Positions 11,685-56,753 of a stretch of DNA of 64,000 bases are shown in pieces. The notes under the pieces were generated by a model, which saw only the letters and a list, made by a program, of their open reading frames with translations, was not told the origin of the DNA and did not search any database. Source of the stretch: Gammaproteobacteria bacterium. GTDB lineage: Bacteria > Pseudomonadota > Gammaproteobacteria > JADZEE01. Each line of letters opens with the position of its first letter. The first letter of the stretch is position 1. Both the position numbers and the translations under genes were made by a program. Location of the stretch: the NCBI GenBank assembly GCA_020850735.1, contig JADZEE010000096.1, positions 1-64,000 on the forward strand. The letters run 5' to 3'.

Positions 11685-11706
11685 CCGCCGCGGTTCAGCG
11701 CGGCGG
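11685..11706. terminator. GC hairpin between convergent genes
   Basis: An 8-bp perfect inverted repeat, CCGCCGCG and CGCGGCGG around a 6-base loop, spans the stop codon of the radical SAM gene and lies 17 bp after the stop of the large membrane protein. There is no T-run on either side, so at best it is a weak bidirectional stop or pause. Confidence 0.3.
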
Positions 11707-13002
11707 TGCGGCCGGCGGGATCGGATCGATGGCGGTGGTGGCGGGGCGGTGCGGTCGCGCGAGTCCGCCCAGGCGCGGGCGGCGCGCGTGCATGAATGCG
11801 GCCGTGATCCGATCGACGCCGTCGTTGCGGGCGATCTGCTCCAGGCGGCGGCGCACGTGGCCACGCACGAAAGCGGGGATCCGCGCCAGCCTCGCCTCGG
11901 CCTCCGGCGTCCATTCGGGCCCGGTGGCCTGGGTCGGCCGGAGCTCCGGCAGACTGCCGGGCGCTGGCTCGTAGCGACACTTGGGGTCTTGCGCCAGCGC
12001 GTCGCCACCGGCCGCGTAGGCGCGTGCGCGGCAGCCGCCGCAGCTGTAGCGGAAGTCACAGACGCCGCACTTGCCCCCGGGCAACTCGAATCGCAGCCGC
12101 CGCAGCAGCGGGTCGGTCTGCCAGACCTCACTGAACGACTGGGTACGCAGATCGGCGACGGGTTCCGGCAGGTAAGGGCAGGGCGTGAGCCGGCCCGCGG
12201 GTGTGATGCGTCCGTAGCTGCGGCCGGCGAGGCAGGCGCTGGACCACGCCGCATAAGGCCCCGTGTCGCAGCCGGCGTGCAGGCCGAGCAGGCGGCGGGC
12301 GTAGGGCGCGCAGCGAGCGCGGATCCGGATCCCGGGCCGTTCCTCCTGCAGCCGGATGACGCGCGTGAGCGCGGCTTCGTAGGCCGGTGCGGACAGATCG
12401 GTCTGCTGCACGCCACGTCCCGTGCAGACCAGGAAAAAAACGTTGAAAGCCATGGCTCCGAGGGCCTCGGCCAGCCCCGCGAGCGGCTCGAGATCGGTGA
12501 GGTTGTCCGTGAACAGGGTGGTCTGCACGAGGATCGGCAGCCCGGCCTCCTGCGCGGCGCCGAGCCCAGCACGGGCGTCCGCCCAGGCGCCCGACCGGCC
12601 GCGCAGCCGGTCATGGAAGGCGGGAGTCGCCGAGTCCAGGCTGATGCCGACACCGGCGGCGCCGGCGGCCCGCAGCTCGCGAGCGCGCCGCGGATCGAGC
12701 AGGGTGCCGTTGCTACCGATCACCGGCATCAGGCCGTGCCCGGCCGCCGCGCGGACGATCTCCGCGAGATCACGACGCAGCAGCGGTTCGCCGCCGGTGA
12801 GCACGAGCATGGCGCCCGCCGCGCCCGCCGAGAGATCGTCGAGCAGCGCCAGCGCCGCCCCGGTGTCGAGCTCGTCTGCGGCCGGCCGCCCGCGCCGGGT
12901 CGCATCCAGGTAACAGTGGCCGCACTCCAGATTGCAGCGCCGGGTGAGATTCCAGGAGATGAGGGCGGGCGCCGGCCAGGGCTCGTGTGCTGCGGCGGTC
13001 AT
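11695..13002 (-). CDS. Radical SAM/SPASM protein with C-terminal PCP_red domain, 435 aa
   Basis: The N-terminal radical SAM domain carries C23-N-L-E-C27-G-H-C30 (CX3CX2C for the SAM-binding [4Fe-4S]) and TGGEPLLR. The C-terminal cysteine-rich SPASM-type region runs from about 290 to 350 (CPYLPEP, then CGVC, CGGC and a final C), as in NirJ/AhbC/PqqE-like enzymes. Residues 364-408 form a PCP_red domain (WTPEAEARLARIPAFVRG), otherwise known from the C-terminus of protochlorophyllide reductase BchB. It is the last gene of the NXR-like operon, 34 bp after the gamma gene, so a maturation or cofactor role is likely. The substrate is unknown. The start ATG is placed just upstream of the conserved SWNLTRRCN; in-frame sequence above it looks non-coding. 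Confidence 0.85.
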   Translation of the reverse strand: MTAAAHEPWPAPALISWNLTRRCNLECGHCYLDATRRGRPAADELDTGAALALLDDLSAGAAGAMLVLTGGEPLLRRDLAEIVRAAAGHGLMPVIGSNGTLLDPRRARELRAAGAAGVGISLDSATPAFHDRLRGRSGAWADARAGLGAAQEAGLPILVQTTLFTDNLTDLEPLAGLAEALGAMAFNVFFLVCTGRGVQQTDLSAPAYEAALTRVIRLQEERPGIRIRARCAPYARRLLGLHAGCDTGPYAAWSSACLAGRSYGRITPAGRLTPCPYLPEPVADLRTQSFSEVWQTDPLLRRLRFELPGGKCGVCDFRYSCGGCRARAYAAGGDALAQDPKCRYEPAPGSLPELRPTQATGPEWTPEAEARLARIPAFVRGHVRRRLEQIARNDGVDRITAAFMHARRPRLGGLARPHRPATTAIDPIPPAAPPR

Positions 13003-13036
13003 GGCGCGAGCGCCTGGACGCGGCGCGGGCCGGACT

Positions 13037-14050
13037 TCAGCCGGGAGTCGCTGCGCCGGGTGTCCTGCGCCAGCGCCGCAGGCCCGCGAACTGCAGCAGC
13101 CCCACGCCCGCGAATACCGCCAGCGGTGCGCCATAGGCCCGCAGCGGGTCGACCGGCTGCTCCAGGCTCAGGAAATACCAGGTCGAGACCCCCTTCTCGC
13201 CACCGCGCTCGCGATGGGCGCCGTCCCAGGCAGCGAAAGCGACCGGGACCGTCATGCCACGTTCGAACAGGAACTCTTCCTGCTCGCGCGGTACGCTGAT
13301 GACCACCGTCCAGACCCCGTCCTGCCAGATCGCGCGCGCGGCGCCGTCCTGGTCCTGTGGCGGAACCGAGGTCACGCTGCCGAAGCCCTTCGCCGCGAGC
13401 TTCTCGACGGCGGTACGCTGCTGCAATTCCTGGTCGGCGAGCGCATTGCCCGCCGCCCACGCGGTGATGAATGTCCGGTCGCCCGCGGGAGAGCCGTAGT
13501 CCGCCGCCTCGGCGATCTCACCGGGACCGCGTCCCGAGAACGGATACCAGTCCGCGATCATCAACGGATAGCGTTCGTCCACATCCGCGGCCGGCGCGCT
13601 CTGGAAGTCGGCTTTCCACTGGTAGAGCGTCACCGGACGATCCGGTTCGCCCATGGCGAAATACGGGATCCCCGCCGCCGGAAGCGCCGGGAATTCCACC
13701 GCGACCGCATCGCGGAACGCTGCCACCTGGCCGGCCATCCCGTCGCGCTGCGGGTCCTGCCACTGCAAGCGGAACGCCAGCCGTTCGCTGGCGTACAGCG
13801 CACGTACCTCGAGCGCCGTGACACCGACCTCGTAGGCGCGCGGTTTGACGACGGCCTGCGGTGCGAGTGGCACGGCCAGCACGTCCGCGTCCTCCCAGGC
13901 CGGATCGTTCGGATCCTCCGGCAGCTGCGCCACCACTTTGGCGATCAGCGTGGCTTTCTGTGCGGCGAGTGCCGGTAGCGCGAAGGTCCCCAGGACGAGC
14001 AGCGCGGAAACGATCGAAATCAGTCGGCGAATCAGATCGGGCTTGCGCAT
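13037..14050 (-). CDS. Heme-b gamma subunit of type II DMSO reductase family enzyme (NxrC-like)
   Basis: 337 residues: a Sec signal (residues 8-30, ending ALA), an ethylbenzene dehydrogenase-type heme-b domain (about 35-300) and one C-terminal helix (about 306-324) with an Arg-rich end. In relatives (EbdC, DdhC) the heme is held by a Met and a Lys about 80 residues apart. Here Met133 in FAMG-x-x-x-x-PV is the clear Met candidate, and Lys217 or Lys221 (before GFGSVTS) fit the Lys. It should take electrons from the beta subunit at the periplasmic face and pass them to a cytochrome c. The start overlaps the chaperone gene by 19 bp. The C-terminal anchor is unlike soluble EbdC/DdhC but plausible for an NxrC-like subunit. 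Confidence 0.8.
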   Translation of the reverse strand: MRKPDLIRRLISIVSALLVLGTFALPALAAQKATLIAKVVAQLPEDPNDPAWEDADVLAVPLAPQAVVKPRAYEVGVTALEVRALYASERLAFRLQWQDPQRDGMAGQVAAFRDAVAVEFPALPAAGIPYFAMGEPDRPVTLYQWKADFQSAPAADVDERYPLMIADWYPFSGRGPGEIAEAADYGSPAGDRTFITAWAAGNALADQELQQRTAVEKLAAKGFGSVTSVPPQDQDGAARAIWQDGVWTVVISVPREQEEFLFERGMTVPVAFAAWDGAHRERGGEKGVSTWYFLSLEQPVDPLRAYGAPLAVFAGVGLLQFAGLRRWRRTPGAATPG

Positions 14051-14784
14051 GAGTCGTTCTCCCGCGGCGGCGTGGCGGCCGCGGTGCAGCCGCCGCAGCC
14101 TGGTGCTTCGGTCCCTTCGGAGAGCACGTCCGGACCCGCGACCTCGTCCGGAGACAGGCCCGCGGCAACGATCTCGGCCGTGACGAACGCCACCAGCAGG
14201 CGCGCCAGCTCACCGTAAACGGTCCCGGCTGCCCGGGATTCGAGGCGGCGGGCGAAACCGCACACCCAGCGGCCGAGATGCTCGCGAAGAAATTCGATGC
14301 GTGCCTCGTGGCACAGGGCCAGCCGGTCGGCGTCGTGCCCGTGTGCCGCACCGTAGGCCTCTTTCATATGCAGGAACTGCATGAACTCGAGCTCCACGGT
14401 GAGCGCGTCGGCTCGATCGTGCAGGTCGGCCGCGAGTTCCAGACCGAAGGCGCGGTAGAAGCCGGCGATGTCCGCGAGCTGATGGGTTTTCTGAAATATG
14501 TGCGCCTGCCCGTACTCGGTTTCGTACGGCGGGCAGTCCTTGGAGATGGTGTGGCCGAAGCAATGCACGTGAGCGGCCCGCAGATCCGCGTTCGCCAGCC
14601 CGGTCAGCCGGATGCCGGCAGCCCCGCTCGTATCGTCGAGCAGCGCCGGCAGCGAGCCCGCCAGCGCCGTCCACTGCGCATCGAGCTCGCTCGGCGTGTC
14701 CTCGTCGGGTGTGGCGAATGCCCGCGCCAGGAAGGCATACATCCGGCTGCGTGCGAGGCGGTCGTCGTCAAGGCATACGGGCAT
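14032..14784 (-). CDS. TorD/NarJ-family molybdoenzyme chaperone, 250 aa
   Basis: All-helical cytoplasmic chaperone of the TorD/DmsD/NarJ superfamily. It contains the characteristic segment CPPYETEYG (residues 84-92) followed by QKTHQLADIAGFYRAFGLEL and D-R-A-D-x-L-x-V-E-L-E-F-M. Such proteins bind the alpha-subunit Tat signal and assist Mo-cofactor insertion before export. The start ATG at 14784 lies 14 bp after the beta-subunit stop; in-frame sequence further upstream is antisense-like and overlaps the beta gene. The C-terminus carries a CGGC pair, which could bind a metal, but this is not established. The position between beta and gamma matches type II enzyme operons. Confidence 0.88.
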   Translation of the reverse strand: MPVCLDDDRLARSRMYAFLARAFATPDEDTPSELDAQWTALAGSLPALLDDTSGAAGIRLTGLANADLRAAHVHCFGHTISKDCPPYETEYGQAHIFQKTHQLADIAGFYRAFGLELAADLHDRADALTVELEFMQFLHMKEAYGAAHGHDADRLALCHEARIEFLREHLGRWVCGFARRLESRAAGTVYGELARLLVAFVTAEIVAAGLSPDEVAGPDVLSEGTEAPGCGGCTAAATPPRENDSCASPI

Positions 14785-14798
14785 GGTCGCTGGCCTGG

Positions 14799-16073
14799 TC
14801 AGATCGAGTTGTAATGCTTTGCCGGGCGCTCGAACTTGGGCTCCTCGACGCTGACCCGCACGATCTCCTTGCCGGAGCGGTCGTAGCCGACGACCGTGTC
14901 GTTGTACATGCTCCAGGGCTGGCCGCCGATGTTGCGCTCGAAGACCTTGGCGCCCTCGATGATTTCGTAGCGGAAGACGATGGTCTGGCTCGCCCGGAAC
15001 AGTTGCAGCACCGCCAGCAACTCGCGCGACGGCCGCGTGTAGGTCTCGATTGCCGCATCCACGCCGGGACCGAACATCTGCCGCAGGTAGGGTCGTGGCG
15101 CCCAGCGCGGGGGGATGTAGTAACCGTTCGGCTGAGTGCCGAATTGTGGATATAGCGGCAGCGCGACCTTTGCCACGTGCACCAGGTAGTAGAGCGGATT
15201 GTGCCGATCCTCGACCCAGCCGCCGTTGCCGTCGACTTGCACGAGCCCCTGCATCCGGATCTTGCCGACGCAGGCCGCCATGCAGCGCGTCTCCATCGGC
15301 TCGCCGGCCGTGAGGGCGTCCTTGCCCTCGATGCGTGGATAGCAGGCGATGCATTTCTCGCTGACTCGCGTCGTCGCGCGGTACATGGGTTTCTTGTAGG
15401 GGCATTGCGCGACACATTTTCGATAGCCGCGGCAGCGGCTCTGATCGATGAGCACGATGCCGTCTTCGGGCCGCTTGTAGATGGCGCGCCGCGGGCACGC
15501 CGCCAGGCACGCCGGATAGCTGCAGTGGTTGCACAGGCGCTGCAGGTAGAAAAACCACGTACTGTGCTCCGGCAGCGTGGCCGGATTGAGGTTGGGCCGG
15601 GCGCGATCGGCCTTGGCGCCGCGGGCGGTATCCTCGTAGAAGTTCGGAAAGCGCCATTGTTCGTCGGTCGGCTCGTAACCGAGTGCGACCTCTTCGCGTT
15701 GCGCCTGTGTGTGCGCCGCCTCGAAGATGGTCATGCCGTCGAAGCGGCCGTAGGGTGTGCTGTGCTCCTGTTGGTTGCCCGGGCCCCAGGCCGCCTCCTG
15801 GCCCGCGTCCCGATGCGCCTTGTCCAGCAGTTCGAGAATCCGCACGTCCCAGGACTGCGGATAGCCGCCGAAGGGCTTGGTCTCGACGTTGTTCCACCAC
15901 ATGTACTCCTGGCCCTTGGAGAACGTCCATGTGGACTTGCACGCCATGGTGCAGGTCTGGCAGGCGATGCAGCGATTGATGTTGAACACGAAAGCGAACT
16001 GCTGGCGCGGCGAGGCCTGCGGATACGGATAGTACATGGGGCGGCCGAGCTGCCAGTTGTAGACCTCACTCAT
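14799..16073 (-). CDS. nxrB: Fe-S beta subunit, periplasmic nitrite oxidoreductase type (NxrB-like), 424 aa
   Basis: Four-cluster ferredoxin-type electron-transfer subunit. Cysteines are arranged as C35-x2-C38-x2-C41-x3-C45; C181-x2-C184-x4-C189-x3-C193; C214-x5-C220-x3-C224 with Tyr217 where a fourth Cys would be, predicting a [3Fe-4S] cluster as in NarH; and C241-x2-C244...C264-x3-C268. It lacks its own signal and should be exported with the alpha subunit. Blocks such as VYNWQLGRPMYYPYP, FSKGQEYMWWNNVETKP, RVSEKCIACYPRIEGKD and GPGVDAAIETY agree closely with my memory of Nitrospira NxrB, more so than with NarH, DdhB or ClrB. GGGAGAG precedes the ATG, which overlaps the 96-aa gene by 8 bp. 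Confidence 0.85.
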   Translation of the reverse strand: MSEVYNWQLGRPMYYPYPQASPRQQFAFVFNINRCIACQTCTMACKSTWTFSKGQEYMWWNNVETKPFGGYPQSWDVRILELLDKAHRDAGQEAAWGPGNQQEHSTPYGRFDGMTIFEAAHTQAQREEVALGYEPTDEQWRFPNFYEDTARGAKADRARPNLNPATLPEHSTWFFYLQRLCNHCSYPACLAACPRRAIYKRPEDGIVLIDQSRCRGYRKCVAQCPYKKPMYRATTRVSEKCIACYPRIEGKDALTAGEPMETRCMAACVGKIRMQGLVQVDGNGGWVEDRHNPLYYLVHVAKVALPLYPQFGTQPNGYYIPPRWAPRPYLRQMFGPGVDAAIETYTRPSRELLAVLQLFRASQTIVFRYEIIEGAKVFERNIGGQPWSMYNDTVVGYDRSGKEIVRVSVEEPKFERPAKHYNSI

Positions 16074-16356
16074 GCGTGTCTCTCCCGTCGTCGATTGCAG
16101 CCATCGCGTAGCGCCCGCACACGCGATCGATCAAGGCCCTGATCCGCGCTTCCCCCTGTCCGAGGTAGATGCTGTGGGTGGCGCCAAAACGGGGTTGCTG
16201 GAACAGCCCCAGCAGCTGTGTCTTGTCGTAGCCGAGCATGAGAAACTCCTCGACCAGGCACTCGGCCATCAGCTCCGGATCGCCGGCCGGCATGGCGACG
16301 CCGACCAGCAGCATCGGGTCGTCCGCTGCCGGCGGCTTCGCTGTCGCGCCGCTCAT
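16066..16356 (-). CDS. Conserved-looking small protein between alpha and beta, 96 aa
   Basis: A short soluble helical protein whose ATG overlaps the alpha-subunit stop (ATGA) and whose end overlaps the beta start by 8 bp, so all three are translationally coupled. The core (residues 25-85) has ELMAECLVEEFLMLGYDKTQLLGLF, then QGEARIRALIDRV. It has no signal peptide, no cysteine motif beyond single Cys residues, and no domain I can name. Placement suggests an assembly factor or a minor subunit for the NXR-like enzyme. The coupled overlaps and sensible amino-acid usage make a real gene likely. Confidence 0.75.
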   Translation of the reverse strand: MSGATAKPPAADDPMLLVGVAMPAGDPELMAECLVEEFLMLGYDKTQLLGLFQQPRFGATHSIYLGQGEARIRALIDRVCGRYAMAAIDDGRDTHE

Positions 16357-19300
16357 GAGGATCCCTTCACGCGGGTGGCGTCGCCGGCGAGATAGCGGCT
16401 CATGAAGTCGCTCTCGTGTCCGGGCGTGAAGCCACTACGCACCGGCTCCCAAACGCCCTCACCGTCGAGGCCGCCCGGCTCGGCGCGCTGGATGCGCACG
16501 AGGGTTTCCTTGGGCACCGTGTTCACCGCGTGATTGTCGACGTCGAAGCCGAATACGAATCCCATCGTGCCGACCCGCTTGTGGAACAGGCTGTCGGTCT
16601 GGTGCATCGGCGGCGCCCAGCCGCGGGTGATGCTCTGATGGGATCCGTAGCGGAAGTTGGACTGGTAGCCGGTATCGCTGGCGAGCGCCCGGCCGTCCGC
16701 GCGCGACTCGTGCGCGGCGACGGTACGCTCGCTGGCGATCCACGCGCTGTGCTTGGTCATCACGACGTGGTAGGGATAGGCCGGGTTGTATTTCACCCGG
16801 GTCATGAGCCGGAAAGCCTTGTAGCGCGCGTCGGAATCCTTCCAGCCGGCGTAGGGGCGGTCCACCGGGTTGGCGTCGACGTAGATGTAGTCGCCGTCCT
16901 CGATACCCAGATCCCGGCCGGCCTCCGGACTCATGTGCACCTGCCAGTCGCCGACGCCCGGCTGGCGCTTGTCCATCCGGTATGGATCGCCGAAGTTGTT
17001 GCTCCAGATCCAGTTCCAGTCGACCGTGGCCCATGAGGAATGCGTGGTGTGGCGGCTCTTGGGCGTCATGCAGTAGAAGGTGTAGCCCGCCTCCCAGAGC
17101 GGATTTTTCGTCTGTTTGACTTCGGTCCACGGCAGCTTGTTGTTGGCCACGGCCCGCAGGTCCGCATCCAGGATCTGCGCCTGCAGCAATTCCGGCGTGA
17201 CCCCGTAGTTGCGCGGCCGGATGTACGGGCTGCTCGCGACGATGACGTTCGGCAGGTAGGGCGTCGCCTCCGGGGCCTCGCGGTGGGCGATCAGGTTCTC
17301 GCCGTACTCGATCGCCTCGGGAATGTCGGCGTAGGCGTTCATGCGCCCCGTGTCGGTGTAGAAGGGGATGGCGTCGTGCACCTGCTCGTAGAACGGTACC
17401 CGCGGATAGGTGCGGAACAGCATCAGTGCGGCCCCCGGCTCGCCGTACTTGCCCGCCATGATGTCGGCGACCGTATAGCCCTGGGTGGTACAGGAATTGT
17501 CCAGGATGCGCTGGATGTAGACCTCGGGCCTGCCTTCGAGGACGAACTTCCAGTGGTCGCGGAAGCGCTTGTCACCGGTGATTGCGCCGATTTTTTCGGA
17601 CACGAGTGCGAAGATGACGGCGTCGTCGCGCGAGTCGTACAGCGGTTTGATGCCGTCCCCGCCCCAGATCTGGAGAAAGGGGTTGGAGCACGAACCGCCA
17701 CACTCCAGCGCCTGGAACTCCGGCCAGGAGTTTGCGGGCAGGACGACGTCCGAGTATTCGGCCGATCCGGTCCACTCCACCTGCTGATCGATGATGCAGT
17801 CGATCCTGGGATTGACGTTGACCAGCAGGTGATAGACCCACTTGGACTGATTGATGAGGTTGGCGTTGTTGTACCACATGAGCTTGGTTGGCGTGGGCAG
17901 GTGCGTGTGGCCCGTGAAGCTCTTCCTGCCTTCCGGTGTATCGACGATGAACGGCCGGTCGCCGAACCCCCAGTAGCTCAGCTCCTCACCGTGCTGCAGC
18001 TCGCGCACGTTTTCGGGTTTGATCTTGCCGTGCTCGTCGAGCACCTGGTTGAACGGATCCTCGTTGACCCAGGCGCCGCCGACCCCGGGGCCCGACCACA
18101 GCGAACCCTGGAACAGGGCGCCCTTGTAGTTGCCGGCCCAGGTGTGCGCGCCCGAGCCGGGAATGCCGACACTGCCGACGAGCATCAGCGGCAGATACAC
18201 GGCGCGGTTGTGTTCGGTCGCATGAAAGTAATGGTTGATGCCTTCGCCGTAGTGGATGGCGATGGGATAGGCCTCGCGCGGTTTGCCTTTGAAGTCCTCG
18301 TCCCAGAAACGCCGGCCAAAATCCTTGACCAGCTCCTCGATGAGCTCCTTCGGCGCGCTGCTGATGTCCGCCGCCGTATCGAGGTCGTAGTCGGCGAGAT
18401 GCTCCCGGTACATCGCCCACACGGTCATGACCTCGACCCTGGTGCCGTCCGCGAGCGCGACGGTCCCGCGCCAGTCGAGTTCGGGATCCACGCCCGTGGC
18501 CGTGAGCTGCGAGCCGACGTCATCACGGCTGAGCGCCACCGGTGCGCCGCGGCCGCGGTCATGGACCAGGAAGTCACCGATGCGCTCGCGCTGTTCTGCG
18601 GTCATGCCCTGGATGGTAAAGCTCGGGCCCGCACCGATGTCCTTGTTTCGATAGCCGGCAAATACCTCCTCGGGACGCAGACGCCGCAGCGTGTCGGTGC
18701 GCACCAGCAGCGGAAAGTCGGTGAACTGCTTGACGAAGTCGACGTCGTACCAGCCGCGCTCCATCAGCTCGCGGGTCACGGCGAGGAAGATCGCCGTGTC
18801 GGACAGACCCGGACGCACCGAGATCCAGTAGTCGGCCTTGCTGGCCGTGGGGTTGTACTCCGGCGCAATGACCGCGATGCGCCCGCCACGCTCCATGATC
18901 TCGGTGAGCCAGTTGGCCTCGGGCATCTTGTTCTCGATGAGATTCTTGCCGACCTGCACGGTGAACTTGGTGAAGCGCAGATCGTTCAGATCGATGTCCG
19001 AGGTCTGCAGGCCGTGCACGTAGGGCTGGCCGGGCGCCTGGTCGCCGCGCCAGGTGTACTCCGACCACTCGCGCGCGCCGCGCGCTTCGTCCGGGCCCAC
19101 GCCGCGGACGTTCGCGTCGAGCAGGCCGAGCAGGTTGGCCATGCGGAACGTACCGAACTTGCCGATGATTCCGTGCGGAGGCAGCGAGCTGCCGAGCTTC
19201 ATCGTGCGGGCGCCGGCGCCGTCCCAGTGCGCGAGCATTTCCGTGGGGTAGCCGTCTTTTTCGATCAGCCGCCGCCGGCCGTCCTCACCGCTGTAGGTCT

Positions 19301-19892
19301 TGGCAATGGCGATCAGTGCCCGGGCGACGTAGTCGCAGGCCTCGTCCCAGCTCACGCGCACGAATTCGTCGGTGCCGCGCGTGTCGAAGCGGTAGGTGGT
19401 GCGCAACTGCGGATCGTCTGACAGCGACGGGAAGCCGGCGTCGGCCCACGCCTTCCAGCCCTTGCGCAGCATCGGTCCCTTCGCGCGGTAAGGTCCGTAG
19501 ACGCGCCGATGCATGGTGAATCCTTTCAGGCACATGCGCGGATTCCACGCCTGGGTGGCATGATTGCCGTACAGATCTCCGTAGCGCTGGTGGTCGTAGT
19601 TCTGCTCGGTGCGTATGATCACGCCGTTGCGCACGAACGCGCGCACGCGGCACATGTGGGTGTCGTTCGGCGCGCAGATGTAGGTGAAGCTGCGGTCGTA
19701 GGCGTACTGGTTGCGATACACCTCCTCCCAGTCGCGGTCGGGGTAGTACTCGAGCGGATTGGCGATCTCGGGTACCGGCGCGAGCGCCCGCGCCGCGAAG
19801 GCCCACTCGCCAGCCGTCGCAGTGACGGTGCCGGCCGCGAGCGCGCCACCGCGCATGAGCAGTTCTCTGCGGGTAATCTTTCCATCTTTCAT
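16353..19892 (-). CDS. nxrA: Molybdopterin alpha subunit, periplasmic nitrite oxidoreductase type (NxrA-like), 1179 aa
   Basis: Catalytic subunit of a type II DMSO reductase family enzyme. A Tat signal is present (ITRRELLM, residues 6-13, then a Gly/Ala hydrophobic stretch). The N-terminal Fe-S site reads C73-x3-D77-x3-C81-x39-C121, i.e. Asp where NarG has its second ligand Cys. Asp284 in WRGDQAPGQP aligns with the Mo-ligand Asp of NarG (WYCDLPP), which marks the type II family. The length (about 1150 in Nitrospira and Kuenenia NxrA) and the block RMCLKGFTMHRRVYGPYR support periplasmic NXR rather than NarG, which is larger and lacks Tat cleavage. It would oxidise nitrite or reduce nitrate in the periplasm; direction cannot be read from sequence. 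GGAG lies about 10 bases upstream of the ATG. Confidence 0.82.
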   Translation of the reverse strand: MKDGKITRRELLMRGGALAAGTVTATAGEWAFAARALAPVPEIANPLEYYPDRDWEEVYRNQYAYDRSFTYICAPNDTHMCRVRAFVRNGVIIRTEQNYDHQRYGDLYGNHATQAWNPRMCLKGFTMHRRVYGPYRAKGPMLRKGWKAWADAGFPSLSDDPQLRTTYRFDTRGTDEFVRVSWDEACDYVARALIAIAKTYSGEDGRRRLIEKDGYPTEMLAHWDGAGARTMKLGSSLPPHGIIGKFGTFRMANLLGLLDANVRGVGPDEARGAREWSEYTWRGDQAPGQPYVHGLQTSDIDLNDLRFTKFTVQVGKNLIENKMPEANWLTEIMERGGRIAVIAPEYNPTASKADYWISVRPGLSDTAIFLAVTRELMERGWYDVDFVKQFTDFPLLVRTDTLRRLRPEEVFAGYRNKDIGAGPSFTIQGMTAEQRERIGDFLVHDRGRGAPVALSRDDVGSQLTATGVDPELDWRGTVALADGTRVEVMTVWAMYREHLADYDLDTAADISSAPKELIEELVKDFGRRFWDEDFKGKPREAYPIAIHYGEGINHYFHATEHNRAVYLPLMLVGSVGIPGSGAHTWAGNYKGALFQGSLWSGPGVGGAWVNEDPFNQVLDEHGKIKPENVRELQHGEELSYWGFGDRPFIVDTPEGRKSFTGHTHLPTPTKLMWYNNANLINQSKWVYHLLVNVNPRIDCIIDQQVEWTGSAEYSDVVLPANSWPEFQALECGGSCSNPFLQIWGGDGIKPLYDSRDDAVIFALVSEKIGAITGDKRFRDHWKFVLEGRPEVYIQRILDNSCTTQGYTVADIMAGKYGEPGAALMLFRTYPRVPFYEQVHDAIPFYTDTGRMNAYADIPEAIEYGENLIAHREAPEATPYLPNVIVASSPYIRPRNYGVTPELLQAQILDADLRAVANNKLPWTEVKQTKNPLWEAGYTFYCMTPKSRHTTHSSWATVDWNWIWSNNFGDPYRMDKRQPGVGDWQVHMSPEAGRDLGIEDGDYIYVDANPVDRPYAGWKDSDARYKAFRLMTRVKYNPAYPYHVVMTKHSAWIASERTVAAHESRADGRALASDTGYQSNFRYGSHQSITRGWAPPMHQTDSLFHKRVGTMGFVFGFDVDNHAVNTVPKETLVRIQRAEPGGLDGEGVWEPVRSGFTPGHESDFMSRYLAGDATRVKGSS

Positions 19893-19920
19893 GGTGAGCG
19901 ATCTCCGCGAGCGGGCGAGT

Positions 19921-20706
19921 TCATTTGCGCGGTTCGTGGCCGGTAGCCGCGTACAGGTAGACGATCACCTTCCAGGCCTCGTCGGTGCTGAGGTCGTAGG
20001 TGTGCAGCGTGGATATGTCCGGGTTGTCCGGCGGCGCGACCCAGCGCGGCATGGCGCTGTTGAACTGGTTCTGGATGCCGCCGATGGTGAGCCGCCAGTA
20101 GACGTACGGCAGCGTGAGCTGGGCGATCGTGCCGGGATCCTGGAAGTTCGCCGGTCGGATCGGATAGCGGAAGCCTTCGGCCGCGGGGCCGGCGCCGTCG
20201 AGCTTCTCGCCGTGGCACACCGCGCAGTTGGCATCGTAGAGCACCTTCCCGGCGGCGACGATCTCCTCGCTCCAGGCCGTCGGATCGGCGACCCAGTCGG
20301 GAACCTGGATCTGGCGCAGGGCGGCCTCGCCGGCGGTGGGATGGCGCTGGAAGATCTCGACCGGCGGCGCGTAACGCGGCCGCGCGGCGTCGAAGACCCA
20401 GTAGGCGAGCAGCAGCGGGGCAACGAGCAGCAGGCCCCAGCGCTGCGCCTTGAGGCTCGCCGGCTCATCGGCGCGCGCCTGGACGAAAAAGTCCCGGAAG
20501 CTGTCGATGCGCTGATCGCGCAGCGTGACGTGGATCACCAGACCGAGGACGACGAAACCCATGTACAGCAGGATCACGCTGTGCGGAATCACCGGCCGGA
20601 TCAGCTTGAGCAGGACGTACACCGTGACGGCGACGAGGAAGACCCCGCTCGGCAGCGGTATCGCCGCGCGCAGGGCCGCAAATCGGGTCATGAATACGGA
20701 TGTCAC
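19921..20706 (-). CDS. Membrane-anchored monoheme cytochrome c, 261 aa
   Basis: Three N-terminal membrane helices (about residues 20-38, 42-60 and 88-105) precede a cytochrome c domain with C161-A-V-C164-H165 and a distal Met candidate, Met219 (NSAMPRW). The start is a GTG at 20706 that overlaps the stop of the diheme gene (GTGA); AGGAGG lies 8 bases upstream. The next in-frame ATG at 20691 has no ribosome-binding site. It ends 28 bp before the alpha-subunit gene. It probably relays electrons between the NXR-like enzyme and the bd-like oxidase at the periplasmic membrane face. Confidence 0.85.
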   Translation of the reverse strand: MTSVFMTRFAALRAAIPLPSGVFLVAVTVYVLLKLIRPVIPHSVILLYMGFVVLGLVIHVTLRDQRIDSFRDFFVQARADEPASLKAQRWGLLLVAPLLLAYWVFDAARPRYAPPVEIFQRHPTAGEAALRQIQVPDWVADPTAWSEEIVAAGKVLYDANCAVCHGEKLDGAGPAAEGFRYPIRPANFQDPGTIAQLTLPYVYWRLTIGGIQNQFNSAMPRWVAPPDNPDISTLHTYDLSTDEAWKVIVYLYAATGHEPRK

Positions 20707-21533
20707 GAGTCGTCCCTCCTGGCGAGGTAGTCGACCACCGCCTTGAGCTGCGCCGCGCTGAGCGTCGTGCCGTAGTCGGCCGGCATCACCCCGGCGGGAT
20801 AATCGGGTCGCTGGAACGCGCCGGGATCGACGATCGCTTCCAGCAGATAGGCCTCCAGGGTCAGGCCGCGCTGCGCGGCAATCTGCCGCAAGTCCTCGCC
20901 GTCCAGCGCCGGTCCGAGCACGGTCTCGCCCGGCTTCTCGCTGTGACAGGCGAAGCAACCGAGGGCGGTCAGCAATTCGGCACCGCCGGCCGCGGTTACG
21001 GGCGCCGGTGTCGCCTGAACCGCCGCCGTCCCCGCCTGCGCGGGTTGCGGCAGATCGCCGATGCTGACCGAAGGCGTGCCACCGAGCGATTGCAGATAGT
21101 CGACCACGGCCACGATTTCGTTGTAGCCGAGCTTTGCCGGTGCGGCCGTCGCCGCGGGCATGATGTTCATGTAGCCCTCGACCAGGTGGGCGCCGGGCTC
21201 GTACAGGGATTGGGCGAGGTAATCGACGAGCGTGCCCGGTCCGCCGGGCACACCCTGCGCGCGGCGCTCGGCGACGCCGTCGAGATTCGGCCCGCGACCG
21301 CCACCTTGCACGCCTCGTCCCGGCTCGAGCGTGTGACAGGCCATGCAGCCCCGCTCGCGGACGATCGTCGCGCCGGCCTGTGCCAGGTCCGCCGGTGTCA
21401 TCTGCGTGCCGAGATCGAGTTTTTTCGGCGGGTCCCAGTGGGTCTGCGGGATCCAGTTCGCGAACCAGACGAAGAAGCCCACCACCACCATCGCCGGGAT
21501 CGCCGGCGTGAGCAGAGCAAGTCCGCGATTCAT
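20703..21533 (-). CDS. Membrane-anchored diheme cytochrome c, 276 aa
   Basis: One N-terminal helix (about residues 8-27) anchors two class I-like cytochrome domains. The first has C63-M-A-C66-H67 with Met124 (NIMPAA) as distal ligand; the second has C192-F-A-C195-H196 with Met249 (GVMPADY). A Pro/Ala-rich linker (about 152-182) separates them. The ATG overlaps the stop of the bd-like oxidase gene (ATGA) and the end overlaps the next cytochrome gene (GTGA), so all three are coupled. The two-domain form resembles CcoP-like or Nitrospira oxidase-associated cytochromes and is a natural electron donor to the oxidase. Confidence 0.85.
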   Translation of the reverse strand: MNRGLALLTPAIPAMVVVGFFVWFANWIPQTHWDPPKKLDLGTQMTPADLAQAGATIVRERGCMACHTLEPGRGVQGGGRGPNLDGVAERRAQGVPGGPGTLVDYLAQSLYEPGAHLVEGYMNIMPAATAAPAKLGYNEIVAVVDYLQSLGGTPSVSIGDLPQPAQAGTAAVQATPAPVTAAGGAELLTALGCFACHSEKPGETVLGPALDGEDLRQIAAQRGLTLEAYLLEAIVDPGAFQRPDYPAGVMPADYGTTLSAAQLKAVVDYLARRDDS

Positions 21534-23272
21534 GCCGGCTGTACCTCGGACACGGATCCGGCCGCGCCGTGCGCCACCGGCTCGTGGCCGGTACGCGCCA
21601 GTGCGGACAGGTAGAAACCGATAGCGAGCAGCGTGAAAAATATGGCGGTGATGATCGTGATGACGATCGCCGCTTCACCGAGCGAAGGCAGTCCGGCGCC
21701 CGCGGACGTGTCCTCCATGATGCCGAACACGTGCCAGTTCAACCGCGCGCCGCTGCGGGCGTAGCCCATCAAGCCCATGAGCCACACGATGATCACGGCG
21801 AGTGCCACCAGCACGTACTGCCCGCGCCGCGGCATCGCGCCCCAGCGCACCTGCGCCACCGTTCGCGCGCCGCGCAGGAGGAACAGGTCGAGGACGAAGG
21901 TGACGATGATGCCGCCCATGAGAACGACGATCTGCCAGATCGATGTCTTGATGCGCACGTCGGCCGGCGCGAAGTAGCCGTAGACGCCGAGCACCGTGAT
22001 GATGAGCGCGGTGAGGCCGACGGTGGCCCATTGCACGCGGACTCCGGTATCGCCCCAGGGGACGGTGATCACCTTGCCGGCGTGCCGGTAGACCAGGTAG
22101 CTCGCGTACAGCACTACCAGGATCAGCGTGACGGCGATCATCTTCGGCGCCATCACGCCGAGCGCGCCGAGCACGGGATGAAAGCCGCCGGTCGACTCCT
22201 CGATCGAAGCGGCCATCGTGTGCGGCGTCGCCCAGACGATGAAGCCGGTGATCAGCGCGACGTTGAATACCGACGACCAGGCCTGCTCGCGTTCCGAGCC
22301 CGGGATGCGCAACAGCCCCAGCCAGGAGTAGTAGGCGGCACCGATGAACAGCATGGCGATGACGATGGCCTGGATGATGAACAGCCACGACAGCACGCCG
22401 CCCATCAATGTCACGCCGTAGGTGGCCGAGTAGGCGAACAGCTCGAAGCCGAAATAGTAGCCGGCGAAGGGCAGGAACAGCATCGTGAACAGCGCGATCA
22501 GGGTGCCGGTGTAGCCCATCCAGTCGTAGAGCTCGCGCTCGGCACTGTTGCGCGCCAGCAGGAAGCGGTAGGCCGCGTAGCCCGAGCACAGCAGCGCGCC
22601 GAATGTGATGTTGGCGATCAGGCGATGAACGTTGAGCGGCATCCAGCCCGCATTCCACACGGCGTCATACAGGCTGATCAGCGTACCCTGCTCGTCGACC
22701 CCGCCCGGGGTCATCATGAAGGTCGCCCAGGAATCGGCGATGAACATCACGATGGTACCGAAGACGTTGAGCAGCAGGCCGAGCGCGAGGTGCAGCCACT
22801 TGCGCTCGCCCTGCATGCGGTCCCAGCCGTAGTACCACAGGTACAGGCACAGCGTCTCGGCGACGAAGAATAGCGGATAGACGACGAAGGTCGGGCCGAA
22901 CACGCCGGTCAGATATGCCATGAACTTCGGGTAGGCGGTGAACAGCGTGAAGCCGAGCGCCGCGCCGGTGATCGCGGTGAGCGAATAGGCGACCGGCAGC
23001 AGGCTCGCCATCTCGTGCGCGAGCCAGTCGTGGCGACGGGCGGCTTCCGGATCCTTGTGACGCGCCCGCCAGCCGACGAATTCGATGAACAGTGCGAACA
23101 TCGGCACGGCGAGCACGAAGGCCGCGAACATCAGGTGCAGCTGGGCGGCGATCCAGACGGTGATGCGGCTGCTGAAGCCGGTGACGGCCGGATACTCCGC
23201 CGTTGCCCAGGCGGCCGGAGCGGCGATGACGAGCACGATCAGCGCCAGCGAAAGTTGCCCGATCCGCTTCAT
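21530..23272 (-). CDS. Cytochrome bd-like oxidase subunit I (CydA-like), 580 aa
   Basis: Polytopic protein (signal-like N-terminus, then about 13-14 helices). The CydA pattern is visible: His46 in QLHLMFAAF (high-spin heme ligand position), Glu139 followed by LYLWYYGWDR (matches the E. coli E107...GWDR region) and His216 in NVHRLIAN (low-spin heme His). The quinol-site motif GRQPW of true CydA is replaced by ARLNWHVFGIMEDTS around 509-523, and no CydB gene follows. Long bd-like oxidases of this kind are known from Nitrospira, where cytochrome c rather than quinol is a suspected donor. The ATG at 23272 has GGGGGAGG just upstream; it is the first gene of the operon. Confidence 0.78.
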   Translation of the reverse strand: MKRIGQLSLALIVLVIAAPAAWATAEYPAVTGFSSRITVWIAAQLHLMFAAFVLAVPMFALFIEFVGWRARHKDPEAARRHDWLAHEMASLLPVAYSLTAITGAALGFTLFTAYPKFMAYLTGVFGPTFVVYPLFFVAETLCLYLWYYGWDRMQGERKWLHLALGLLLNVFGTIVMFIADSWATFMMTPGGVDEQGTLISLYDAVWNAGWMPLNVHRLIANITFGALLCSGYAAYRFLLARNSAERELYDWMGYTGTLIALFTMLFLPFAGYYFGFELFAYSATYGVTLMGGVLSWLFIIQAIVIAMLFIGAAYYSWLGLLRIPGSEREQAWSSVFNVALITGFIVWATPHTMAASIEESTGGFHPVLGALGVMAPKMIAVTLILVVLYASYLVYRHAGKVITVPWGDTGVRVQWATVGLTALIITVLGVYGYFAPADVRIKTSIWQIVVLMGGIIVTFVLDLFLLRGARTVAQVRWGAMPRRGQYVLVALAVIIVWLMGLMGYARSGARLNWHVFGIMEDTSAGAGLPSLGEAAIVITIITAIFFTLLAIGFYLSALARTGHEPVAHGAAGSVSEVQPA

Positions 23273-23626: not shown

Positions 23627-23642
23627 TTGGCACGATCCCTGC
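23627..23642 (+). promoter_or_regulatory. Candidate sigma54 promoter for the usp-hemY-sensor-regulator genes
   Basis: TTGGCACGATCCCTGC matches the -24/-12 consensus TGGCAC-N5-TTGC in all but one position, with GG (23629-23630) and GC (23641-23642) separated by 10 bases. A start near 23653 gives a leader of about 40 bases to the ATG at 23695, which has a strong GGGAGGAAA ribosome-binding site. Confidence 0.6.
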
Positions 23643-25194: not shown

Positions 25195-25209
25195 GCGTTG
25201 ACCGGGGCC

Positions 25210-26637: not shown

Positions 26638-26679
26638 AATACCCGGGCGCGACACGAGCCGCGAACAGGTGCACCCCAG

Positions 26680-28779
26680 ATGCCGGTCGCTGGCGCTATC
26701 CCTGTCCCTGATCCCGAACGCTCCGGCGCCGCGCCGTCCTGCACGCCCGCTGCGCGCACGCCACCGGCCGATTACACACGCTGGTTTCCCCTGCTCATCG
26801 GCCTGAGCGTCGCGGCGACGACCCTGGGCTGGTGGACCGCATTGCTTACCGAGGAGCAGACGCGGCGCGCGCAGACCACGGCGCTGCAGCTCGAGAGCGT
26901 CACCAATGAGATCTCGGTGCGGATGGAGTCGCGCCTGCTGGCCCTGCAGCGCATGGCGCGGCGCTGGGCGGCGCGCGGCGAAGCGTTGCCGCAGCACTGG
27001 GCAGCGGACGCCGCTCTGTACGTCGAGCACTATCCCGGGTACGCGGCGATTGCACTGCTCGACGAGCGCAGCCGCGCACGCATGCTCGTGCCCGACGACG
27101 CCCGTGTGCTCGCAGGCGCCATCGAGGCGCGCGCCCGAGGCTGTCTTTCGGAACCGGCCGCGAGCGTGGCCGCCGCGCGTCCGGTGCTGACGCCGACGTT
27201 CGAGATTGCCGCCGGCGAGCGCGTGTTCCAGGTCAACGTTCCCGTGCGCGCCGAGCAGGGCGTTTTGGGTTGCATTGCCGGCGTCTTGCGCGCCGGCGAA
27301 ATGCTCGATGCGATGATCGGCCCGCACATCGCGCCCGGCTACGGGATCGAGATCCGCGAGCGGGACCAGGTCATCTACCGGCGCGCGACGCCGCGCGATG
27401 CGGCCGCGACCGAAGCGATCCGCAGCACCAGGATCGACCTGCAGGGACCACAATGGCGCGTTGCGGTATGGCCGTCGCTGGCGCTGATCGACGCCACGCG
27501 CTCGCCGCTGCCGCTGGCGGTGCTCGCCGGTGGTCTGCTGCAGGCGCTGCTCGTCGGCGTCGCGGTATACCTCGCGCAGCTTTCGCGTTCCCGGGCGCGC
27601 GAGCTCGAAGTGGCGAACGAGGATCTGCGGCTCGAGTTCAACGGCCGGATGCGTGCGCAGGAGATGCTGCGCAAGCTCTCACTGGCGGTTGAGCAGAGCC
27701 CGAGCATGGTCATGATCACCGACCTCACCGGTGCGATCGAGTACGTCAATCCGAAATTCACCCAGGTCACCGGGCATACGCTCGATGAAGTGCGCAACTG
27801 CAATCCGCGCATCCTCAAATCCGGCTGTACGGCGCCCGCGACCTATCGCGACATGTGGGCGACGATTCTGGATGGCCGGGAGTGGCGCAGTGAATTCCAG
27901 GATCGCAAGAAAAACGGCGAGCTGTTCACGGTGCAGACGGCGATTTCGGCCATTCGCGACGACGACGGATCGATTACGCACTTCCTCGCGGAGATGGAGG
28001 ACATCACCAAGCGCAAGCGTCTCGAGCAGGAGATCGAAGAGCACAATCGTCTGATGGTGAAAAACGAGGCCCTGGCCGCCATGGGCCAGGCCGCCAGCAT
28101 GATTGCGCACGACCTGCGCAACCCCCTGTCGTCCATCAAGATGTCGCTGCAGATCCTCGGCAAACAGCCGGCACCGGAATGGCACGACGATACCCGTGAG
28201 CTGCAGCACATCGCGCTCGAGCAGGTTCGCTACATGGAGGAGGTGCTCACCGATCTGTTGAGCTACTCGCGTCCAGACGCCCTCGCTCCGGCGTGGATCG
28301 ACGTGCACAGTCTCGTCGAGCGGGCCGTGAACCTGGTGCAGCGCGAGATCCAGGCGCATGGTGCGCAAGTACAGATGCGCTGCGATCCGGGCCTGCCGCG
28401 CGTGCACGGCGACGCCAGCAAGCTGCAGCAGGCACTGTCCAACCTGCTGTCGAACGCGATCCAGGCGTGTGAGGACTCGGCCGATCATCGGGTGCCCCGG
28501 GTTGCCGTCACGGCCCGGGTGCAGTCTGCGGCAAACAAGTCCTGGGTGCGCATCGAGATCCGTGACAACGGCAACGGCCTGGCGCCGGAGATCGCCGGCA
28601 GCGTATTCGAGCCCTTTTTCACCACCCGGGCGCGGGGCACCGGCCTGGGACTGTCCATCGCCCGCAGGATCATCGATCAGCACCGCGGCGAGCTGCAGCT
28701 GGAGCCCCAGCCGTGCGGCGGCACGTGCGCGTGGTTGCTGTTGTCGACCGCGCCGATCGGGAGCCCGGTCGGCGCATGA
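26680..28779 (+). CDS. NtrB-like PAS sensor histidine kinase, 699 aa
   Basis: Membrane sensor: helix 1 (about 35-54), a roughly 220-residue periplasmic sensing region, helix 2 (about 277-302), a short coiled coil, one PAS domain (about 330-450, with MITDLTGAIEYVNPKF and PAC-like ITKRKRLEQE), a HisKA domain with phospho-acceptor His477 (MIAHDLRNPLSSIKM), and an HATPase domain (N-box NLLSNAIQA, G1 DNGNGL, G2 GTGLGLS). Its stop overlaps the ATG of the response regulator (ATGA). The gap to the hemY stop is 42 bp, suggesting one transcript usp-hemY-kinase-regulator. The ligand cannot be read; nitrite, nitrate or redox are reasonable guesses from context only. Confidence 0.88.
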   Translation: MPVAGAIPVPDPERSGAAPSCTPAARTPPADYTRWFPLLIGLSVAATTLGWWTALLTEEQTRRAQTTALQLESVTNEISVRMESRLLALQRMARRWAARGEALPQHWAADAALYVEHYPGYAAIALLDERSRARMLVPDDARVLAGAIEARARGCLSEPAASVAAARPVLTPTFEIAAGERVFQVNVPVRAEQGVLGCIAGVLRAGEMLDAMIGPHIAPGYGIEIRERDQVIYRRATPRDAAATEAIRSTRIDLQGPQWRVAVWPSLALIDATRSPLPLAVLAGGLLQALLVGVAVYLAQLSRSRARELEVANEDLRLEFNGRMRAQEMLRKLSLAVEQSPSMVMITDLTGAIEYVNPKFTQVTGHTLDEVRNCNPRILKSGCTAPATYRDMWATILDGREWRSEFQDRKKNGELFTVQTAISAIRDDDGSITHFLAEMEDITKRKRLEQEIEEHNRLMVKNEALAAMGQAASMIAHDLRNPLSSIKMSLQILGKQPAPEWHDDTRELQHIALEQVRYMEEVLTDLLSYSRPDALAPAWIDVHSLVERAVNLVQREIQAHGAQVQMRCDPGLPRVHGDASKLQQALSNLLSNAIQACEDSADHRVPRVAVTARVQSAANKSWVRIEIRDNGNGLAPEIAGSVFEPFFTTRARGTGLGLSIARRIIDQHRGELQLEPQPCGGTCAWLLLSTAPIGSPVGA

Positions 28780-31389: not shown

Positions 31390-33210
<1,821 letters not shown>

Positions 33211-56741: not shown

Positions 56742-56753
56742 GGTAAGACGACC

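Follow-up and report, generated by a model that had tools for sequence, protein, structure and literature searches.

Periplasmic nitrite oxidoreductase (NXR) has been described together with a conserved gene set in Kuenenia, Nitrospira, and Nitrospina. TorD, mono- and diheme cytochromes c, and a bd-like protein are among its members, and the last of these was termed enigmatic in 2013 (PMC3578206). According to the same paper, the bd-like proteins of NXR clusters lack the quinol residues, and an alternative-complex-III-like role was suggested for them if quinone is bound (PMC3578206). The Kuenenia enzyme (KsNXR) is reported to work in both directions (PMC8387239), and the broad clade joining NXR and Nitrotoga-type enzymes is described as including the nitrate reducers Thermogutta and Methanoperedens (PMC10732223).

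Here, a 64,000-nucleotide stretch of a gammaproteobacterial genome (the window) was analyzed. The explanation we favor, with moderate confidence, is that its locus encodes a complete periplasmic NXR (NxrA, NxrB, NxrC, a TorD-like chaperone, and a small helper) lying inside a second, independent module (bd-like protein, diheme and monoheme c cytochromes, tetrapyrrole-modifying genes), and that it oxidizes nitrite. No earlier description of a proteobacterial nxr operon or of the bd module was found in titles and abstract openings, a search that left subscription literature mostly outside.

Gene layout and NXR subunits

A sequence-only reading had described nine minus-strand genes with six of eight junctions overlapping or at most 15 bp apart, and the frame and junction checks agree. 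All nine frames in 11695-23272 are intact with a single stop apiece. The longest stop-free run in this region is 1203 codons, compared with a median of 287 and a maximum of 556 in 100 mononucleotide shuffles. Five junctions overlap, by 4, 4, 4, 8, and 19 bp, and three have gaps (14, 28, and 34 bp); counting the 14-bp gap, six are overlapping or at most 15 bp apart. The locus extends past the span first given (11695-23272), with a divergent plus-strand set at 23695-30170 that starts 422 bp past the bd-like gene and encodes Usp-PCP_red, HemY-like, PAS kinase, and sigma-54 response regulator proteins (Table 1).

Table 1. Features of the locus, with positions in the window
Feature	Position	Strand	Evidence
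SPASM radical SAM protein, NirJ2/AhbD-like, C-terminal PCP_red domain, 435 aa	11695..13002	-	PF04055, PF13186, PF08369
NxrC-type heme b subunit (gamma), 337 aa	13037..14050	-	PF09459 98 bits; Kuenenia NXR-C 65.5 bits
TorD/NarJ-like chaperone, 250 aa	14032..14784	-	PF02613 59 bits; TIGR03482 104 bits, below cut-off 152
NxrB-type Fe-S subunit (beta), 424 aa	14799..16073	-	Kuenenia NXR-B homology
Small conserved helical protein between nxrA and nxrB, 96 aa	16066..16356	-	Conservation in relatives, predicted fold
NxrA-type catalytic subunit (alpha), Tat-like signal, 1179 aa	16353..19892	-	Kuenenia NXR-A (7B04) homology, ligand residues, trees
Membrane-anchored monoheme cytochrome c, 261 aa, GTG start	19921..20706	-	One CxxCH after hydrophobic stretches, PF00034/PF13442
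Diheme cytochrome c, N-terminal hydrophobic stretch, 276 aa	20703..21533	-	Two CxxCH, PF00034
bd-like heme protein, cytochrome bd subunit I relative, 580 aa	21530..23272	-	PF01654 63 bits
Sigma-54-like candidate promoter site before divergent set	23628..23642	+	Pattern match
Universal-stress-protein domains and PCP_red domain (usp_pcp), 499 aa	23695..25194	+	PF00582 109 bits, PF08369 49 bits
HemY-like protoporphyrinogen oxidase family protein, 479 aa	25198..26637	+	TIGR00562 226.8 bits, cut-off 97.85
PAS sensor histidine kinase	26680..28779	+	PF02518, PF00512, PAS
NtrC-type sigma-54-dependent response regulator, start codon provisional	28713..30170	+	PF00158 231 bits, PF00072, PF02954

The window groups with 19 relatives, Burkholderiales and Rhodobacteraceae among them, in a clade made up of Pseudomonadota only, with taxonomy taken from record titles. 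All nine genes are present in 15 of the 19 relatives, and the other four loci end at contig boundaries, so the operon is not unique. The bd-like, diheme, and monoheme genes precede alpha in 16 of the relatives; L033, L034, and L039 begin inside alpha.

Alpha scored 1624.7 bits against Kuenenia NXR-A across residues 5-1175. Beta scored 627 bits against Kuenenia NXR-B across residues 2-424 and 214 bits against perchlorate reductase PcrB. In a tree with references other than Nitrospira, Nitrotoga, SerA, ClrA, and DdhA sequences, alpha fell within the NXR clade, which had 100/100 support to the exclusion of PcrA and the NarG of the host genome. N76, D77, D284, and three Cys of alpha align with ligand residues of Kuenenia NXR-A. 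The alignment contains what marks a periplasmic NXR: a Mo ligand Asp, a substrate Asn, and an FS0 cluster bound by three Cys and one Asp, with the residue roles taken from PMC8387239 and the three Cys putatively assigned from conservation. C73, N76, D77, and C81 are found in 17 of the 20 clade alphas, C121 in 18, and D284 in all 20, the remainder being gaps. A twin-arginine motif is present on alpha in 17 clade members and the other three are truncated N-terminally. The scores, together with the ligand residues and the tree position of alpha, identify alpha and beta as NXR proteins of the periplasmic type. The earlier claim of a periplasmic-type NXR in a gammaproteobacterium is thus upheld by the Kuenenia NXR-A/B scores, the ligand residues, and the trees.

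M133 and K286 of gamma align with the NXR-C heme ligands Met155 and Lys305. Both residues are kept in all 18 clade gammas of an alignment made without L030 (length filter) and L035 (no gamma in view). The N-terminal stretch of gamma is signal-like, and close to its C terminus there is a short hydrophobic segment, read by eye and under the threshold of the hydrophobicity scan. Gamma clusters with the gammas of NXR operons, apart from those of bd modules, and NxrC appears to substitute for the bd module's own gamma. At E 0.01, the 96-aa protein matched nothing in NCBIfam or Pfam. It is present in 18 of the 19 clade relatives (the L035 contig ends before that gene), and homologues were also found in Nitrospina (L046) and Methylomirabilis (L041). 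Its predicted structure is all-helical (pLDDT 82), and no PDB entry matched the predicted fold with E <= 0.001. Within the favored explanation, and with the same moderate confidence, this protein would be a small conserved helper of NXR.

A bd module that also occurs apart from NXR

The bd-like protein is 40-42% identical to counterparts in uncultured Nitrospina (L121), Sulfuricaulis (L117), and L119, and 22-25% identical to canonical CydA. When it was aligned with three canonical CydA proteins, the three heme-ligand positions (H46, H216, and M374) and one Glu (E139) aligned with CydA positions, and the Q-loop and two conserved Glu were missing. No second PF01654 protein was found in the host genome (G000). 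An AlphaFold model made with 16 close sequences had a mean pLDDT of 53, too poor for use.

The operon had been read as self-contained, with its own oxidase. The lack of the Q-loop, the two Glu, and a second PF01654 protein does not bear this out. Kuenenia, an anammox bacterium, is an anaerobe. Its nxr cluster reportedly carries a bd-like gene of this kind (PMC3578206), which also speaks against an own oxidase. Of the electron path proposed earlier, the stretch up to cytochrome c is supported in part, as the Mo, Fe-S, and heme b ligand residues are kept and two c-type cytochrome genes (diheme and monoheme) precede alpha; the oxygen-reducing bd end is not.

Usp-PCP_red and HemY-like genes are each linked in 17 of the 19 clade relatives and in none of 46 control loci, and a PAS kinase relative is found in 8 clade loci compared with 1 control. 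The radical SAM protein scored 290 bits with TIGR04055 and 263 bits with TIGR04545, both under the cut-off of 500. The Usp-PCP_red/radical SAM/HemY trio looked NXR-specific at first, with linkage in 17-18 of the 19 clade loci and in none of the 46 controls. This was rejected: usp_pcp occurs in 13 of 369 genomes of the class, and 10 of these 13 have no NXR-clade alpha (the three that do are G000, G014, and G341), which led to the separate-module reading. Seven of the ten were examined, and every one has the bd-like, diheme, mono(-gamma), usp_pcp, radical SAM, and HemY-like genes. The bd-like protein and two c cytochromes are a separate module, new here, and the NXR genes lie inside it in the window clade. 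The module's tetrapyrrole genes (Usp-PCP_red, NirJ/AhbD-like radical SAM, and HemY-like) also flank the window operon. Since the module occurs without NXR and with tetrapyrrole genes in 7/7 examined genomes, the function of the bd-like protein can be tested independently of nitrite oxidation.

The sigma-54-like site is the sole exact match to the pattern in the window, with 0.18 expected. At least one match occurred in 17 of 100 shuffles, so the site is weak taken alone. With a looser pattern, the 19 clade loci had nine sites (0.23 per 10 kb), seven of them before usp_pcp; in these seven relatives, 91-206 bp separate the site from the matched usp_pcp start. Eleven module loci had five sites (0.25 per 10 kb), and the rate in the control loci, NXR loci from other phyla among them, was 0.08 per 10 kb. 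With a stricter variant, only 5 of 186 loci had a match.

A wider proposal, which we offer as tentative and rather doubtful in its entirety, is that the bd-like protein, two c cytochromes, EB_dh-type heme b protein, and tetrapyrrole trio make up a respiratory module without a description in the literature searched. It would be a terminal reductase fed by cytochrome c, with a special tetrapyrrole from its own genes and sigma-54 control in some carriers. In the window clade, NXR would have been inserted with NxrC replacing the module's heme b subunit, and nitrite would feed the terminal reductase directly.

Reaction direction and alternative explanations

Under the favored explanation, cytoplasmic folding of NxrA-NxrB with the chaperone would be followed by joint export through Tat and assembly with NxrC outside the cytoplasm. 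Nitrite would be oxidized at Mo, and the Fe-S clusters and the heme b of NxrC would relay electrons to the membrane-anchored c cytochromes, which may deliver them to the bd-like protein or to a heme-copper oxidase of the genome.

Since KsNXR catalyzes both directions, the direction is beyond the reach of sequence. We consider nitrite oxidation likelier than nitrate reduction, as 13 of the 20 clade hosts, including G000, have a canonical NarG above cut-off, and heme-copper oxidase-family proteins (NO reductases possibly among them) are present in all 20. It is probable that the enzyme is reversible and that its host oxidizes nitrite facultatively rather than obligately. The genome search detected no RuBisCO family protein in G000; together with its canonical NarG, this leaves a nitrifier lifestyle unsupported. 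Among the clade hosts, 10 of 20 have RuBisCO-family matches, one of them partial. The hosts are mostly metagenome assemblies, so gene absences are soft.

In the main alternative, the enzyme would be a periplasmic nitrate reductase of a denitrifier, with electrons running from quinol through the bd-like protein, diheme c, monoheme c, and NxrC to Mo and nitrate reduced outside the cytoplasm. In its favor, 16 of the 20 hosts have strong cytochrome d1 (NirS-type) matches at 487-520 bits, which make most clade hosts likely denitrifiers, but G000 has no strong NirS-type match and no NirK above cut-off. The ten hosts that have no RuBisCO-family match also suit it. In 6 of the 20 hosts, no full NarG and no large partial one was found, so the NXR-type enzyme could be the nitrate reductase there, whereas the 13 hosts with NarG argue the other way. 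The bd-like protein keeps the His/His/Met heme positions, and an alternative-complex-III-like role has been suggested for such proteins if they bind quinone; however, the Q-loop is absent from this one, and quinol residues are described as lacking in its kind (PMC3578206). The closest solved enzyme to alpha is an NXR. Taken together, we find this alternative unlikely.

A binning artefact, with the contig coming from another organism, is very improbable. G000 is 94.96% complete with 5.89% contamination in 170 contigs, and neither 16S rRNA nor rpoB was found in it, so the host could not be placed by either. Against this, 15 other Pseudomonadota records have the complete nine-gene set and four more have part of it, and the window lies within one contig of at least 135197 bases that carries recBCD. 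Activity on chlorate, perchlorate, selenate, or a hydrocarbon is highly improbable: such enzymes share the type II DMSO reductase superfamily (TIGR03479, 281 bits, far under the cut-off of 984.75), but alpha scored 160 bits with perchlorate reductase PcrA and 104 bits with EbdA compared with 1625 for NXR-A. The sequence-only reading had named grouping of alpha with dimethylsulfide, chlorate, selenate, or ethylbenzene enzymes as evidence against it; alpha is far from PcrA, EbdA, and NarG by score and from PcrA and the host NarG in the tree, a comparison that has SerA, ClrA, and DdhA outside it.

Comparison with known systems

With nitrite oxidation as the direction, the gene block would probably give ordinary proteobacteria energy from nitrite. 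Periplasmic-type nitrite oxidation would then reach a clade of Alpha-, Beta-, and Gammaproteobacteria, mostly denitrifier-like. The way nitrite is accounted for in the habitats of these hosts would change, and the hosts may be more readily cultivated than Nitrospina or Nitrospira.

The Kuenenia stuttgartiensis NXR (7B04) resembles the window enzyme in full-length alpha and beta homology, a heme b gamma, and agreement at the Mo, Asn, Fe-S0 Asp, and NxrC Met/Lys positions. The Kuenenia nxr cluster is also reported to have a bd-like gene and c cytochromes (PMC3578206). In contrast to Kuenenia, the window's nine genes include no cupredoxin-type gene by NCBIfam or Pfam, the host is a gammaproteobacterium, and the nxr genes lie between the monoheme c and radical SAM genes.

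Nitrospina NxrA falls in the same NXR clade as the window alpha. An uncultured Nitrospina genome has a bd-like gene (about 40% identical), a diheme gene, a monoheme gene, and then a diheme gene with weak gamma similarity. However, its bd-like/diheme/monoheme module and nxrA are on different contigs, the fourth module gene has no EB_dh match in Pfam at 0.001, and no tetrapyrrole trio was found within 15 kb of the module.

Four loci of the same class with NXR/Nar proteins (L018-L021), perhaps Nitrotoga-type, have alpha, beta, and gamma in 4/4 and the chaperone in 3/4 (L020 is a short contig). They differ in that alpha is 37-41% identical, no bd-like match is nearby, and they form a sister clade in the tree.

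In contrast to the OR-N type CydAA' of Nitrospirales and Nitrospinota, a single PF01654 protein was found in G000; its bd-like protein is only about 40% identical to a Nitrospina one. The two systems are alike in having a bd-like subunit without the canonical quinol loop, and cytochrome c has been proposed as the electron donor of the OR-N type bd-like oxygen reductases (PMC12342949, PMC10839748).

Gene layout and identity of the enzyme

The operon consists of nine intact, closely spaced genes, and recounting its gene junctions gave the counts of the sequence-only reading, which had proposed a self-contained periplasmic NXR-like operon with its own oxidase. Many related loci, those of Nitrospina and Methylomirabilis included, also have the 96-residue protein, possibly a maturation factor, encoded between nxrA and nxrB.

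Features of the window, with operon genes in order of transcription
Feature	Position	Strand	Basis or remark
bd-like membrane heme protein, diheme c, membrane-anchored monoheme c, NxrA, 96-residue protein, NxrB, TorD-like chaperone, NxrC, radical SAM/SPASM protein with PCP_red (last gene)	11695-23272	-	family searches and CxxCH/hydrophobic scan
96-residue protein	16066-16356	-	
sigma-54-like site	23628-23642		predicted, pattern match
1371-residue open frame	7552-11667	+	converges on operon end
recQ	31390-33210		
recC, recB, recD	53547-63354		consecutive

Among solved enzymes, NxrA scored 1624.7 bits against Kuenenia NXR-A (residues 5-1175 aligned), whereas the next were perchlorate reductase (160 bits), ethylbenzene dehydrogenase (104) and NarG (85-91). 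NxrB reached 627 bits with Kuenenia NXR-B versus 214 with PcrB, and NxrC 65.5 bits with Kuenenia NXR-C. An IQ-TREE phylogeny was built from 25 alphas, 23 chosen from the 87 rows of a wider tree plus PcrA and NarG as references. The window alpha fell in an NXR clade with Kuenenia and Nitrospina (support 100/100), outside of which lay PcrA, the host genome's own NarG and a group 37-41% identical. In the Kuenenia structure (PMC8387239) particular residues hold Mo, the substrate and an unusual cluster with an Asp ligand, and Met and Lys are the ligands of the NxrC heme b. All of these are the same across the window clade (the window alpha and 19 relatives) wherever the aligned row covers the column. 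By these sequence tests, with PcrA, PcrB, ethylbenzene dehydrogenase and NarG as the references from outside NXR, the window enzyme is classed as NXR; within that set the result supports the periplasmic type proposed by the sequence-only reading.

Carriers of the NXR clade

The 20 alphas of the window clade (SH-like support 100) come only from Pseudomonadota as labelled in the records: Gamma-, Beta- (Burkholderiales) and Alphaproteobacteria (Rhodobacteraceae, Hyphomicrobiaceae). Locus L016 was left out of this count since it shares a genome with L022. The genome scan confirmed 120 relatives, of which the 80 best were kept, so further carriers may exist. In the window's class, Gammaproteobacteria, 7 of 369 sampled genomes have an alpha at E <=1e-80, three of them of the NXR clade (the host, G000, and G341 and G014). 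The 55 comparison relatives of G000 are kin at class level only. The molybdopterin oxidoreductase family gave 28 matches on many contigs of G000, two being pieces of the window's NxrA, with several open frames of 930-1040 aa.

Three further Pseudomonadota, by label or kinship (G014, L045, L058), carry a different, Nitrospina-like NXR. These proteobacterial loci (L017, L058 and L045, in G014, G388 and G389) stand at 63-64% to the window. Their set also has the bd-like genes, near nxr in two and on a separate contig in the third; L045's genome has a RuBisCO gene and these genes on one contig. NXR-type genes in many non-nitrifier genomes, chiefly Planctomycetota, are already described in PMC10732223 and PMC9562985.

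Reaction direction and the bd-like protein

Nitrite oxidation is probably the direction of the reaction, counting NXR identity and the NXR gene set in its favor. A separate canonical NarG above cut-off in 13 of the 20 clade hosts, G000 included, and heme-copper oxidase-family proteins in all 20 also argue for oxidation. Nitrate reduction is the less likely direction, but it is a serious candidate: NXR is reversible, NirS-type matches occur in 16 of 20 hosts, and a RuBisCO-family match is missing in 10 of 20. G000, in whose genome the sequence-only reading had suggested looking for carbon-fixation genes, is among these 10. Such absences are soft because the clade hosts are mostly metagenome assemblies. 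G000 has a qNor-like protein and no strong NirS-type match. No NirK scored above cut-off in 23 genomes (top score 190 bits, G372).

OR-N bd-like proteins are considered likely, though unproven, cytochrome c oxidases in PMC12342949 and PMC10839748. An alignment to three canonical CydA shows that the bd-like protein has retained His, His, Met and a single Glu (heme-ligand types from PMC8951039) but lacks the Q-loop and two conserved Glu. Its family has additional conserved His (H365 and H514, window numbering). The gene set occurs in anammox Kuenenia, an anaerobe, which speaks against O2 reduction as the bd-like protein's only role.

The bd-like genes as a module

The Usp-PCP_red gene, followed by a HemY-like gene, starts 422 bp past the bd-like gene on the opposite (plus) strand; next comes a PAS kinase, then a sigma-54 response regulator. 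Linkage of Usp-PCP_red, HemY-like, radical SAM and kinase genes was found in 17, 17, 18 and 8 of the 19 clade relatives and in 0, 0, 0 and 1 of 46 control loci, which total 255 kb versus 390 kb for the clade loci. The corresponding counts were 1, 2, 2 and 8 for 58 NXR loci of other lineages and 2, 2, 2 and 1 for four Nitrospina-like loci. The sigma-54-like site is weak by itself; similar sites lie upstream of Usp-PCP_red in 7 relatives.

The bd-like, diheme and monoheme genes precede nxrA in 16 of 19 clade relatives; L033, L034 and L039 start within alpha, giving no view upstream, and L035 is cut at the other side. The complete nine-gene set is visible in 15. Tracing through Usp-PCP_red found 13 carriers among the 369 class genomes; 10 of these lack an NXR-clade alpha. 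In each of the seven examined (G213, G318 and G326 were left out), Usp-PCP_red, a HemY-like gene and a NirJ/AhbD-like radical SAM accompany the bd-like, diheme and mono(-gamma) genes, and a sensor kinase relative is present in six. This tetrapyrrole trio is opposite the bd genes in 5 of 7, only the HemY-like gene is opposite in L184, and all lie on one strand in L180. L180, with no NXR alpha seen, reads bd-diheme-mono/gamma-Usp-PCP_red-radical SAM-HemY. L022, of the window clade, reads bd-diheme-mono-[nxrA-96aa-nxrB-torD]-gamma-Usp-PCP_red-radical SAM-HemY, also on a single strand. Window-clade gammas cluster with NXR-operon gammas, apart from module gammas, in a quick, midpoint-rooted tree with some long branches. 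A Burkholderiales host (L146, G383:C1:534000-553000) has two more tandem bd-like/diheme/mono/gamma sets besides the NXR-operon one.

What is new is that the bd-like and c cytochrome genes are a module in their own right. On the simplest reading, the NXR genes would have come to sit within this module, and NxrC would have displaced its own heme b subunit.

According to the 2013 paper on the genome of Nitrospina gracilis (PMC3578206), Kuenenia, Nitrospira and Nitrospina have an NXR gene set in common, including TorD, mono- and diheme cytochromes c and a bd-like protein whose role is called enigmatic, so such genes before nxrA are less odd than they seem. An uncultured Nitrospina genome likewise has consecutive bd-like, diheme and monoheme genes, then a diheme gene weakly similar to gamma.
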